Of a DNA stretch of 64,000 nucleotides, positions 52,503 to 56,294 are shown one piece after another; positions within the stretch are counted from its first letter, which is position 1; each line of letters begins with the position of its first letter. The stretch comes from Oscillatoriaceae cyanobacterium M7585_C2015_266 (GTDB lineage Bacteria > Cyanobacteriota > Cyanobacteriia > Cyanobacteriales > Oscillatoriaceae), in assembly GCA_015295835.1 (NCBI GenBank), contig DVEG01000004.1, positions 124,001 to 188,000 of the forward strand, written 5' to 3'. Below the pieces are notes generated by a model that searched no databases, was not told the origin of the DNA, and saw only the letters and a list, made by a program, of their open reading frames with translations. Made by a program: the position numbers and the translations under genes.

Positions 52503-52548
52503 GACATGGAATAGGGGAATTTCCTTGTTCCATGTCTACTTGATTTTT
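52503..52548 (+). terminator. hairpin terminator after secA
   Basis: GACATGGAA (52503-52511) pairs perfectly with TTCCATGTC (52528-52536), a 9-bp stem, followed within five bases by a T-rich run. It lies 12 bp after the secA stop and 10 bp before the convergent gene stop at 52558, so it may serve both directions. Confidence 0.8.
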
Positions 52549-52557
52549 TGGGCTTGT

Positions 52558-53145
52558 TTATTCTGCCTGCTCTTCGCGATCGCGTCTTTCTTTAAAATAC
52601 TCTCCAAAACTTCGATAACCTAAAAAATTAAGAACAGCTACTGCGTGGGGACAAGGTATTTGACCACCTAGAATTTTGTGAAAATCAATTAGTGCGCGTA
52701 AACGCGGGGTTTCTGCCCAAATATGGTTATTTAAACACCGATATTGTTCGCAATTGCAAAATATCTGCCTGGTATAGAGACGTAGAGATATTTCCTGATT
52801 TGGAGCTTTTCGCGATCGCACTCGACAAGTTTCAGTTGTCTCCGTTATTTCCGAAACTAGCTCCCAACTTCTTGCTCTGTTAATGGCTTTCGTAACCGCT
52901 TTTTCTAGATAATCCTTATAAGATATAAATGTCGATACACCCCACGGGCAGTCACGACGGAGTATGTTTCTAGTCAAACGTACCCAAATAACTCTGGCCC
53001 ATACTTCTACGGTTAAGTCTTCTTGACAATCTTCTAACCTTCCTGCCACTTTACCTTTCTCTGTCAGTATTTGCCAGGTAGTGGCATATGAAAACATTTC
53101 AGATCTGAGAGCGGCACTTACTTCTGGTGATCTTAGTCTAGTCAT
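52558..53145 (-). CDS. hypothetical protein with SWIM-like Cys/His motif
   Basis: 195 aa, soluble, with no known name. Residues near 128-170 read FCNCEQYRC and later IPCPHAVAVLNFLGY, which gives C-x-C...C-x-H, the order of a SWIM zinc finger, although the spacer of about 32 residues is longer than the usual 6-25. The first part is helical and rich in Arg. It could bind DNA, RNA or protein; this is not established. ATG 53145 is preceded by AGAGGAAATTATAAC. The leader is unusual and listed separately (hairpin, start-stop codon pair, 14-bp repeats). Confidence 0.72.
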   Translation of the reverse strand: MTRLRSPEVSAALRSEMFSYATTWQILTEKGKVAGRLEDCQEDLTVEVWARVIWVRLTRNILRRDCPWGVSTFISYKDYLEKAVTKAINRARSWELVSEITETTETCRVRSRKAPNQEISLRLYTRQIFCNCEQYRCLNNHIWAETPRLRALIDFHKILGGQIPCPHAVAVLNFLGYRSFGEYFKERRDREEQAE

Positions 53146-53156
53146 GTTATAATTTC

Positions 53157-53257
53157 CTCTGGGGTTTATTTTCCTTGAGGTTTATCTCCTTTAGGGTTTA
53201 TCCTTTAGGGTTTATCCTTTAGGGTTTATCCTTTGGGGTTTATCCTTTAGGGTTTAT
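53157..53257 (-). repeat. 14-bp tandem array with SD-like core, in the leader of the 52558 gene
   Basis: Four contiguous 14-bp units begin at 53194, 53208, 53222 and 53236 on the plus strand (GGGTTTATCCTTTA, the third with one A-to-G change at its end). Degenerate units flank them at 53161-53193 and 53250-53257. On the coding (minus) strand each unit reads TAAAGGATAAACCC, so each carries AAAGGA, which resembles a ribosome-binding sequence. Units are made of two related heptamers (TTTAGGG/TTTATCC). The array ends 12 bp before the start codon. Confidence 0.85.
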
Positions 53258-53265
53258 AGCCTCCT

Positions 53266-53274
53266 TTAGATCAT
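53266..53274 (-). promoter_or_regulatory. start-stop mini-ORF (ATG ATC TAA) with ribosome site in leader
   Basis: On the minus strand AAGGAGATTACAAC precedes ATG ATC TAA. The first 16 bases, GGAGATTACAACATGA, closely match the authentic start region GGAAATTATAACATGA of the 52558 gene (14 of 16 identical). It therefore looks like a duplicated start site that now terminates after two codons, upstream of the repeat array. Confidence 0.5.
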
Positions 53275-53300
53275 GTTGTAATCTCCTTATTTTTATTACT

Positions 53301-53336
53301 AGCCCCTCGTTAGTTCAGTAGGTCCACGGGGGGCCT
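53301..53336 (-). promoter_or_regulatory. strong GC hairpin at the head of the leader
   Basis: AGCCCCTCGT (53301-53310) pairs with ACGGGGGGCCT (53326-53336) with one mismatch and one bulge in otherwise AT-rich DNA. On the coding strand it precedes the start-stop mini-ORF by about 30 bp. It is not followed by a T run there, so a terminator role in that direction is doubtful; an RNA structure in the leader is the better reading. Confidence 0.5.
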
Positions 53337-53498
53337 TACTTTTTGCCTCTTTTTACTTCTGCTTTTATTATAACGCATTTGAGCTATTTAACAATAACTA
53401 CACCAATACAAATAGCTTATAAAAAGCTTGCATTAAATTAGCCAAGCTTATAGATTTAAGCTAGGGGTGTTCGGCGGCCAAAAATAGATACTATAAAG

Positions 53499-56294
53499 TT
53501 ATATTACAGATGGTAAGACTAATTTACTTACAGTCCGACCTTCCTCATTATAATAAAAATGCAATTCACCTGCCATTTGCTCAACAAGGTATCGACAAAT
53601 CAACAGGTGACGAGCAGAAGGATAATCGAGACTAGAAAGGTTAATTAAGTCAGCAGAATAACCAACTTGTAAATCAGCCATTAAAGTAGAGGGGAGTGAG
53701 CCACTATCAATCACTGACAGCTCAACCTTTGCGGAATTTAAAGTACGACACCAGATATCTAGACGACCCCCTTTTGGGGTGCGGCGACAAGCAGCAACAA
53801 GGATTTCGTAGACAATCCATTCAATTTTCAACATATCTGCTCGAATGCTGAGCTTGTCTTCACCGTGGACTTGGGACCAGATTTGACGCTTATAAATAAT
53901 AGAAGCGACTCGCTCAAGCCCTCGCCTCAATAAACCAGCAACAGGTACAATTTCCGTTTGCAAGTGCAGTTGCCATTGTTCCGAGGTAAGCAACTCACGC
54001 ATAGATTGCACTGAAGAAATCAAATGTCGAGAGATTTGCTGTAATTGCATAGCTTGTAAAGAACCAAGAGTACCTCGAAAACGTTCTGTTGACTCATTTA
54101 TTTCATTGCTTAAAACTTGCAGACGATTAACAGCTGCTTCTACGATTCGATAAAAATCTTCAAAACGACGATGTTTGTACCAGTTAAGACATTCCAACTC
54201 TTGTCGCTGCGACTCAAAAATTTGCTGCAAAAGCAAATAACGACGGCACCAAGCTATTTGACAGACAGTAAGATTAATTCCTTCTATTGTTTCTTGGGAA
54301 AAACGACAACCAGACTGGGGCGCTAAAAACAGCACTCCTGTTGGTTGGTGATGTGGAGCGGTACGTAGAGCGATCGCTAAAATTTGGTCAACATTTGGAC
54401 TTTTTAAACACCTCATAATTTCCGGAGACAAATCACTGACTTTAACCTGTAAAGGTCTTTCAGTGGCCAAAATTGACTGTAATAAAGAATCGCTTTGCAC
54501 AGGAATATTAAACAAAGTATCTTGCTCATTAGTTACAAAAGTAACAAAGTGACCAAAATTTCTACCAGGTAACCAAAAAATTGCTGCTGCCAAAGAACAA
54601 TCATAAAATTTAGCTAACTGTTGCAAGATTAAACGCTCATATTTTTGCAAATTTACATTAGACTGTGCCAGAGCGTTGAAATTAAACTGTAGAGTATCAA
54701 AAAATCGTTGCTGCTCCTCAATAGTGCTTTGTAATCGCCACTGATGAAAAAGTAAACCGATTTGCTGGCTGACAGTATAAATAAGCTCGCATTCTCTAAG
54801 ACTCCAAGTGCGTGCTGAGTCATTGGTAAATATAATCAGCCCTTCCAAAGAATGGCCACTCATTAGACTGCAAACTACGAGCGCTCGCACGCCCACTTCC
54901 AAAAAAATCGGGCGCCAATCAAGCAACTTTAGTTCCTCACCCCAATTCTCAATTTCAATTGCCTCTTGAGAACCTTGCAGCATTTGCAAATCTATCTCAT
55001 TCAGAGCTGGTAGCGGCGTTGGTATAGAAATCGGTTTTTTAACGCGAGTATGAGCAGTCTGATAGACAACATCGAACTTGCCGCAATCACGCTTGTAAAG
55101 CAAAACCAGAAATCGTGAACCTCCCAAATGTTCTAAAAGTCTTTCACCGCAGAGCTTCAGTATTGCTTTCCAATCTGGCTCATTACAAATAGCGTGAGTC
55201 AAATCTGCTGTCAAAATCTGATCCGACTTTATTTGCGAAATAGTATCCTCCAAATTCATCACCGGAGCGACTAATGCCACTAATTGAGCTACTCCCCGGA
55301 TATAATTTTTTTCTTGTTCTTGCCAGATACGGGCATCATTATTTTCTACAGCCAAAAAACCTAATAGTTTTTTTTCAACTAGGATAGGAGCTGCTAAAAG
55401 ACTTCGTACCCGTATTAACTGCATTAAAAGGTTGGTAACTTCTGCGTTAAGAGATGAGAAAGACTCACCAATAGTAACAAGATTATCAGCCACTAAAGCT
55501 TGGTAGAAACTGGTGACTTCGGATACCATAATCCCAGAGACGGGGCGCTCGCTTTCTCTAAAACCCGTTATTCTCTTACAACTGCTAGCACGCAGCCAAA
55601 AATAGCGACGTTCTGGATTATACCAATAAATATTAGTACGGTGAGGTTCAACAAACTTGTGAGTTTCCTCAACAACAGCTTCCAGACATTGCTCAAGAGT
55701 AGTGCTCGCCCGTAATTTCCCCAGCAATCTTAGTAGAGGCTGATTGGGATGTTTAGTTTGCTGTCTTTGCCAATCTATTTCAATCTGATATAATGCTGCC
55801 CCCAATCCTCCTAATACCATTGACAATTGAGCTTTTTCTTCTGCCTTTAACGATACTCCCCAGAGCTGTGTGCCCAACAGGGCGACGCCAAAACAGCGGT
55901 TTTTGTAGCGGATAGGGAAAATTAAAGTTCCTTGAATGTTAAATTGTTGTGCTACCTTGCGCCATTCTCCTGCTCGTAATTCTTCCCGCAAGTCAGAAAG
56001 TACCACTGCCCGCTGTTGAATGACTACTTGTTCAAGAATATCCCCTGGCATCAAGATAAAACGCTGTTTTAACAGAGGGATATCTCCCTCTGGGGTTCGA
56101 CCTCCTTTTCCCAGTAAGCGATGATCCAAGCGATCATAAAAACCAATCCAAAGTAATTTATACTCAAACTGCGTTTCCAAGTAGGATAGAGTTGTTTCTA
56201 TTAAGATCTCGACATTTTCCTGTTCGCGGAGGATTTGTAGAGTACGCCCTAGGGCAATAATTCGTTTTTCATAGCTTTTTTCCGGTAAACCCAT
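53499..56294 (-). CDS. multi-GAF sensor with degenerate histidine-kinase end
   Basis: About 931 aa, cytosolic. Four GAF-like regions can be followed: about 10-175 (ILREQENVEILIETTLSYL), 190-345 (LRASTTLEQCLEAVVEETHKF), 370-520 and 560-700. The last 230 residues have a helix-rich dimerisation-like part and an ATPase-like end, but no H-box (no HEIR/HELR-type motif), an N-box reduced to VYEILVAACRRTPKGG and a G-box SVIDSGSLPS. It is therefore probably not a classical kinase. ATG 56294 has GGAG nine bases upstream (CTCCATTTGGAG context), better than the in-frame ATG at 56396. No regulator gene is adjacent. Confidence 0.82.
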   Translation of the reverse strand: MGLPEKSYEKRIIALGRTLQILREQENVEILIETTLSYLETQFEYKLLWIGFYDRLDHRLLGKGGRTPEGDIPLLKQRFILMPGDILEQVVIQQRAVVLSDLREELRAGEWRKVAQQFNIQGTLIFPIRYKNRCFGVALLGTQLWGVSLKAEEKAQLSMVLGGLGAALYQIEIDWQRQQTKHPNQPLLRLLGKLRASTTLEQCLEAVVEETHKFVEPHRTNIYWYNPERRYFWLRASSCKRITGFRESERPVSGIMVSEVTSFYQALVADNLVTIGESFSSLNAEVTNLLMQLIRVRSLLAAPILVEKKLLGFLAVENNDARIWQEQEKNYIRGVAQLVALVAPVMNLEDTISQIKSDQILTADLTHAICNEPDWKAILKLCGERLLEHLGGSRFLVLLYKRDCGKFDVVYQTAHTRVKKPISIPTPLPALNEIDLQMLQGSQEAIEIENWGEELKLLDWRPIFLEVGVRALVVCSLMSGHSLEGLIIFTNDSARTWSLRECELIYTVSQQIGLLFHQWRLQSTIEEQQRFFDTLQFNFNALAQSNVNLQKYERLILQQLAKFYDCSLAAAIFWLPGRNFGHFVTFVTNEQDTLFNIPVQSDSLLQSILATERPLQVKVSDLSPEIMRCLKSPNVDQILAIALRTAPHHQPTGVLFLAPQSGCRFSQETIEGINLTVCQIAWCRRYLLLQQIFESQRQELECLNWYKHRRFEDFYRIVEAAVNRLQVLSNEINESTERFRGTLGSLQAMQLQQISRHLISSVQSMRELLTSEQWQLHLQTEIVPVAGLLRRGLERVASIIYKRQIWSQVHGEDKLSIRADMLKIEWIVYEILVAACRRTPKGGRLDIWCRTLNSAKVELSVIDSGSLPSTLMADLQVGYSADLINLSSLDYPSARHLLICRYLVEQMAGELHFYYNEEGRTVSKLVLPSVI

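Follow-up and report, generated by a model that had tools for sequence, protein, structure and literature searches.

A tandem array of Shine-Dalgarno-like heptamers between two copies of a start region in a cyanobacterial leader

The leader of a 195-aa ORF in the 64,000-nt stretch of cyanobacterial DNA analysed here (the window) carries seven tandem repeat units between two copies of one start region, and each unit is complementary to the cyanobacterial anti-Shine-Dalgarno (anti-SD) sequence. We give about an even chance to the reading, drawn from sequence comparison, that the leader is a ribosome-binding site (RBS) array which has grown by slippage and tunes translation of the gene at 52558-53145.

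Anatomy of the leader

On the minus strand, which codes for the ORF that it precedes, the leader passes from a predicted promoter and a GC hairpin to AAGGAG-8-ATG ATC TAA, the seven units and CAGAGGA-9-ATG (Table 1). The hairpin, AAGGAG, ATG ATC TAA, the repeats and the true SD with its ATG had been picked out by the first-pass annotation, and all are present. Its 'four or more' 14-bp units are accurate for the four 14-mers (units 2-5, three identical and one with a single change) but fall short of the whole array, which has seven units, three of them longer (15, 17 and 19 nt). The units are built on TAAAGGA and TAAACCC in alternation, the extra bases of units 1, 6 and 7 being inserted after AAGGA, which makes the array a tandem repeat of 7-nt units, and TRF gives it a period of 14 and five near-perfect copies. 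The array lies in sense orientation and runs up to the RBS that serves the ATG at 53145; at its other end, the TAA of unit 1 is also the stop codon of the ATG ATC TAA mini-ORF. The array contains no ATG, GTG or TTG between both ATGs and has stops in all three frames, and was therefore rejected as a coding sequence or leader peptide.

Table 1. Features of the leader and its gene, listed in the order of the coding strand
Feature	Position	Strand	Basis or remark
Predicted promoter TTGTTA-16-TATAAT	53367..53394	-	Consensus scan, 10/12 matches; high chance level
GC-rich leader hairpin	53301..53335	-	RNA folds and leader alignment; position conserved in three Oscillatoria orthologues
Ancestral ribosome-binding site and start codon, AAGGAG-8-ATG	53272..53288	-	Orthologues use AGGAGATTATATCATG as real start
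Start-stop ORF ATG ATC TAA	53266..53274	-	Sole start codon between 53274 and true start
Unit 1, TAAAGGAGGCTATAAACCC, 19 nt	53250..53268	-	Best SD-like match in the leader, -11.7 kcal/mol
Unit 2, TAAAGGATAAACCC, 14 nt	53236..53249	-	
Unit 3, CAAAGGATAAACCC, 14 nt	53222..53235	-	
Unit 4, TAAAGGATAAACCC, 14 nt	53208..53221	-	
Unit 5, TAAAGGATAAACCC, 14 nt	53194..53207	-	
Unit 6, TAAAGGAGATAAACC, 15 nt	53179..53193	-	SD-like, -8.8 kcal/mol
Unit 7, TCAAGGAAAATAAACCC, 17 nt	53162..53178	-	SD-like, -5.2 kcal/mol
Present ribosome-binding site and start, CAGAGGA-9-ATG	53143..53161	-	14/16 identical to 53272-53287; SD-like, -5.9 kcal/mol
195-aa protein, weak SWIM-like CxC...CxH motif	52558..53145	-	

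The start regions at 53287-53272 (AGGAGATTACAACATG) and 53158-53143 (AGGAAATTATAACATG) lie 129 nt apart and agree at 14 of 16 bases, as had been claimed, and repeat detection returned the pair at the same spacing (129 nt) with 88% identity over 17 nt. The hairpin (53335-53301) folds with an MFE of -14.8 kcal/mol (z = -2.0). It was rejected as an intrinsic terminator of the coding strand, since the sequence downstream is A-rich and not T-rich, and a T tail is found on the opposite strand only. No Rfam element lies near the leader, the sole match (54376-54443) being far below the gathering cut-off. On the plus strand at 53187-53257, one of the unit heptamers reads TTTAGGG, the plant telomere unit, which is taken as a coincidence.

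Orthologous leaders and the origin of the array

The SWIM-like motif of the 195-aa protein scores below the cut-off, and prediction of its function from structure was dropped because the model is too poor (pLDDT 56) for a fold search. Three close orthologues came to light, all in Oscillatoria (Oscillatoria sp. PCC 10802, O. princeps RMCB-10 and Oscillatoria sp. Prado101) and at 42-48% identity, and that of PCC 10802 adjoins secA, as does the window gene. Between the convergent secA and SWIM-like genes of the window there is a terminator-like hairpin (52503-52536) of 15 pairs followed by a T-rich tail on the plus strand.

All three Oscillatoria leaders consist of a GCCCCC hairpin, 17-20 nt, AGGAGATTATATCATG and then coding sequence, and the array and second start are absent from all of them. 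The distance from hairpin to AGGAGATTATATCATG is 14 nt in the window, close to that in the orthologues. Because the orthologues have the hairpin and this motif with neither array nor second start, ATG ATC TAA is explained as the old start, left stranded. The upstream start copy is thus, on leader alignment, the positional equivalent of the ancestral start, as the orthologues mark it, and the array with the second RBS and ATG is a derived insertion. In the N-terminal alignment, the orthologue starts fall within three residues of the present start. The hairpin was already present in the ancestral leader and is independent of the array. A GC hairpin also precedes the ATG of three more distant homologues in one further genome (G050), and such a hairpin may be a leader feature conserved across the SWIM-like gene family. 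These three paralogues (L006, L008 and L010, at about 1340-1460) have in common a promoter-like block together with the GC hairpin before the ATG, like the window gene.

Duplication of the RBS followed by slippage is well supported as the origin of the array. The ancestral leader would have had a promoter, a GC hairpin and a single RBS with ATG, as Oscillatoria still has. The RBS/start segment would have been duplicated in this lineage, and heptamer-pair units would have grown between the copies by slippage, leaving the old start as a two-codon dead end (ATG ATC TAA) and moving the beginning of translation 129 nt downstream. That the units descend directly from the RBS is inferred from the likeness of units 6 and 7 to the RBS copies, part of which is accounted for by AAGGAG itself.

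Related arrays in the genome and across the order

The array (53162-53268) has a TRF score of 135-137 and is the strongest tandem repeat in 304 kb of the contig, where the runner-up scores 130; inside the window the second-best array scores 61. Allowing at most one mismatch, the 14-mer has four matches in the whole 3.98 Mb genome, all inside the array, and two further genome searches for AAGGA arrays returned, besides the array itself, no more than an AAGGAAG run on a different contig and a single degenerate site. The genome-wide search that the first-pass annotation had proposed therefore places the 14-mer array at this locus only. The array is unmatched at up to three mismatches in 385 other genomes of the phylum, and likewise in viral contigs, and TAAAGGA + TAAACCC as a paired 28-mer was not seen elsewhere. 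A dispersed or mobile repeat was rejected, given the single locus in the genome and the lack of matches in phylum genomes and viral contigs. Two other heptamer runs were observed on contig C7: (CTAAAAT)n, on the coding strand and 5 nt before the start of a minus-strand ORF (114113; L046:14113-14160), and (TTTGATT)n, upstream of a plus-strand ORF by about 50 nt (227131; L048:19131-19173). Their presence suggests that this genome has further heptamer arrays in leaders, unrelated in sequence.

A search of 340 genomes of the order for arrays of at least three AAAGGA at a pitch of 12-16 nt found them in 85, mostly as AAAGGAC AAATGAC or AAAGGAC AAAGGAC; arrays of the AAAGGAC/AAATGAC type come as 7-, 14- and 16-mers. 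The two-heptamer build had been likened to the short repeats of cyanobacteria, and these arrays bear the likeness out, as does a 16-mer, AAAGGATAAAACCCAC, that is almost identical to the window unit. It belongs to an array (AAAGGAYAAAACCSAC) that stands upstream of the gene for an FHA protein in four species of one genus (L062, L063, L065 and L100, at about 1500-1630 in each) and differs between them by whole 16-nt units.

Eighty-two arrays were retrieved, 66 of them non-coding, and the nearest ORF starts on both sides were located with simple ORF calls. The non-coding arrays at 15 independent loci stop no further than 17 nt from a start codon while reading in sense, and no antisense array does so (binomial p = 6e-5), the last AAAGGA being most often 7-10 nt from the ATG. 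With a shorter ORF cut-off, and GTG and TTG starts allowed, there are 16 sense and one antisense; the comparison was designed around the TTG content of antisense arrays, and the bias holds. The genes behind the arrays include dapF-, trmFO-, rdgB- and sbcD-like ORFs, assigned by reading the sequences. Control arrays of TAACTGA, a heptamer that does not pair with the anti-SD, gave nearly the same result (11-12 sense and 0-2 antisense before starts), and an SD-specific sense bias was accordingly rejected; pairing with the SD need not explain a bias that a non-pairing heptamer shows as well. As judged from these sequences, the general pattern is one of sense heptamer arrays before start codons, with SD content an added feature of unproven role.

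Anti-SD pairing, translation and comparison with known systems

The mature 16S rRNA of Synechocystis ends in GAUCACCUCCUUU (PMC6847405). Duplex energies were computed against the cyanobacterial tail as CACCUCCUUU; the 16S 3' end and anti-SD pattern of the window genome itself were not found in its assembly. Nine sites in the leader pair with the cyanobacterial anti-SD, every unit included, in agreement with the SD-like character first ascribed to the repeats. Unit 1 is a perfect match (AAAGGAGG), the old RBS reaches -8.2 kcal/mol and units 2-5 about -5.5 kcal/mol (for the others, see Table 1). The two best SDs (units 1 and 6) have no start codon, the third (the old RBS) belongs to the dead-end ATG, and the productive RBS pairs less strongly. 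The whole leader folds no better than its shuffles (z = -0.55), and 91 of 100 shuffled versions of the array are at least as open, so that the array tends, if at all, to be a little less open than they are; selected single-strandedness is not supported by this comparison. In the predicted fold, the true start region is mostly unpaired (mean unpaired probability 0.61). RNA folding models thus show nothing to suggest selection on structure. The two heptamers of the unit are preserved to the same degree, as plain slippage would leave them.

If the array is transcribed and bound by ribosomes, as we infer, 30S subunits could bind any of the nine SD-like sites, only two of which come with a start codon, and the first of the two leads nowhere. 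Units 1 and 6 and the old RBS, where the SDs are strongest, would act as decoys, and a ribosome terminating at the TAA might be released onto the strongest SD and drift along the array by short-range diffusion to the true start. The array would then set the initiation rate according to copy number. With decoys at its strongest sites and a first start that goes no further than two codons, such a layout would probably lower translation relative to the ancestral leader. That comparable arrays stand immediately before genes in other cyanobacteria hints at a part in adjusting protein output.

The main rival to tuning, and a serious one, is a neutral product of slippage, functionless in itself and tolerated in the stretch from promoter to start because the leader is non-coding. 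Cyanobacterial DNA readily gives rise to heptamer arrays, and an existing RBS that seeded the repeat would account for its SD-sense orientation. We regard this as a real possibility, somewhat short of even. The array is confined to this genome and missing from the orthologues, its near-perfect central units and degenerate edge units are what recent slippage predicts, related genomes have heptamer arrays of many sequences, and RNA structure gives no signal. Set against this are the AAAGGATAAAACC-type array, retained at one gene in four species as pure decay would not favour, and the sense bias directly before starts; moreover, nine SDs and a dead-end start should affect translation somehow, whether neutral in origin or not.

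It is very unlikely that the units form a binding array through which an RNA- or DNA-binding regulator (CsrA-like, S1, Csp or a repeat-binding protein) acts on this gene. GGA motifs at a 14-nt pitch do resemble the spacing of CsrA sites, and similar proposals have been made for TAACTGA repeats (PMC4679880), but a single locus in the genome implies no regulon, and no CsrA (PF02599) was found in this 98.5% complete genome, with E. coli and B. subtilis controls positive. CsrA regulation was accordingly rejected as a form of the regulator binding that had been raised, and the leader is not classed with CsrA/RsmA targets. A classical standby site, where 30S would wait on a single-stranded platform beside a structured RBS, would suit a leader such as this, long, A-rich and with SD motifs downstream of its hairpin, but is highly improbable, given that the predicted folds (start region and whole leader, above) leave the true RBS unsequestered and no waiting needed; the ribosome-loading site suggested at first is doubtful in this strict sense.

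A broader proposal, advanced tentatively and with the chances rather against it, is that tandem SD-bearing heptamer arrays before starts may be a widespread, undescribed class of cyanobacterial leader that tunes translation, in which slippage of units would change the decoy and landing sites met by 30S, the window locus capturing the birth of one through RBS duplication, start-stop dead end and expansion. Multi-SD leaders offer a natural test of the 30S search for a start codon, in which extra SDs may help, trap or do nothing. The Oscillatoria leader and the expanded leader form a clean before-and-after pair, and the sense-oriented arrays across the order supply a large set of natural constructs. 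Should output depend on unit number, cyanobacteria would possess a repeat-based translational rheostat outside the contingency loci of pathogens.

Among known systems, TAACTGA heptamers sit in sense orientation before start codons in Beggiatoaceae and also in cyanobacteria, where they vary by 7-nt indels between strains (PMC4679880). Like the window array they are short tandem heptamers directly before a start codon, but they have little SD character and many dispersed copies, whereas the window array has an anti-SD match in each unit and two alternating heptamers, and occurs once. TAACTGA triplets are absent from the window genome, and the unit sequence sets the array apart from TAACTGA leader repeats; another genome of the order (G559) has over 1200 overlapping matches, a huge contrast for members of a single order. 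Closer are the cyanobacterial AAAGGAC/AAATGAC arrays (of the STRR kind), which share an AAAGGA heptamer with a second AAA-heptamer at 14-nt pitch and often end at a start codon. The window array differs from these in its TAAAGGA + TAAACCC pair and in its flanking duplicated start regions, and is not filed as a member of an STRR family, since its unit is confined to one locus and not dispersed. The FHA-gene array (AAAGGAYAAAACCSAC) has a near-identical unit in sense orientation, its last AAAGGA lies 9 nt before the ATG and its unit number differs between species; unlike the window array, it has a 16-nt pitch, precedes another gene and lacks both a duplicated start and a start-stop ORF. Repeat number in the leader is known to change expression of Moraxella uspA2, with (AGAT)n (PMC4679880), and Haemophilus hmw1A, with (ATCTTTC)n (PMC8262952). 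There, as here, the tandem repeats lie between promoter (a predicted one in the window) and start codon, but their units are not SD matches, as those of the window are, and the window array is known from the sequence of a single isolate. With respect to control by uORFs or leader peptides, the window leader has a candidate in ATG ATC TAA, which is preceded by a good SD.
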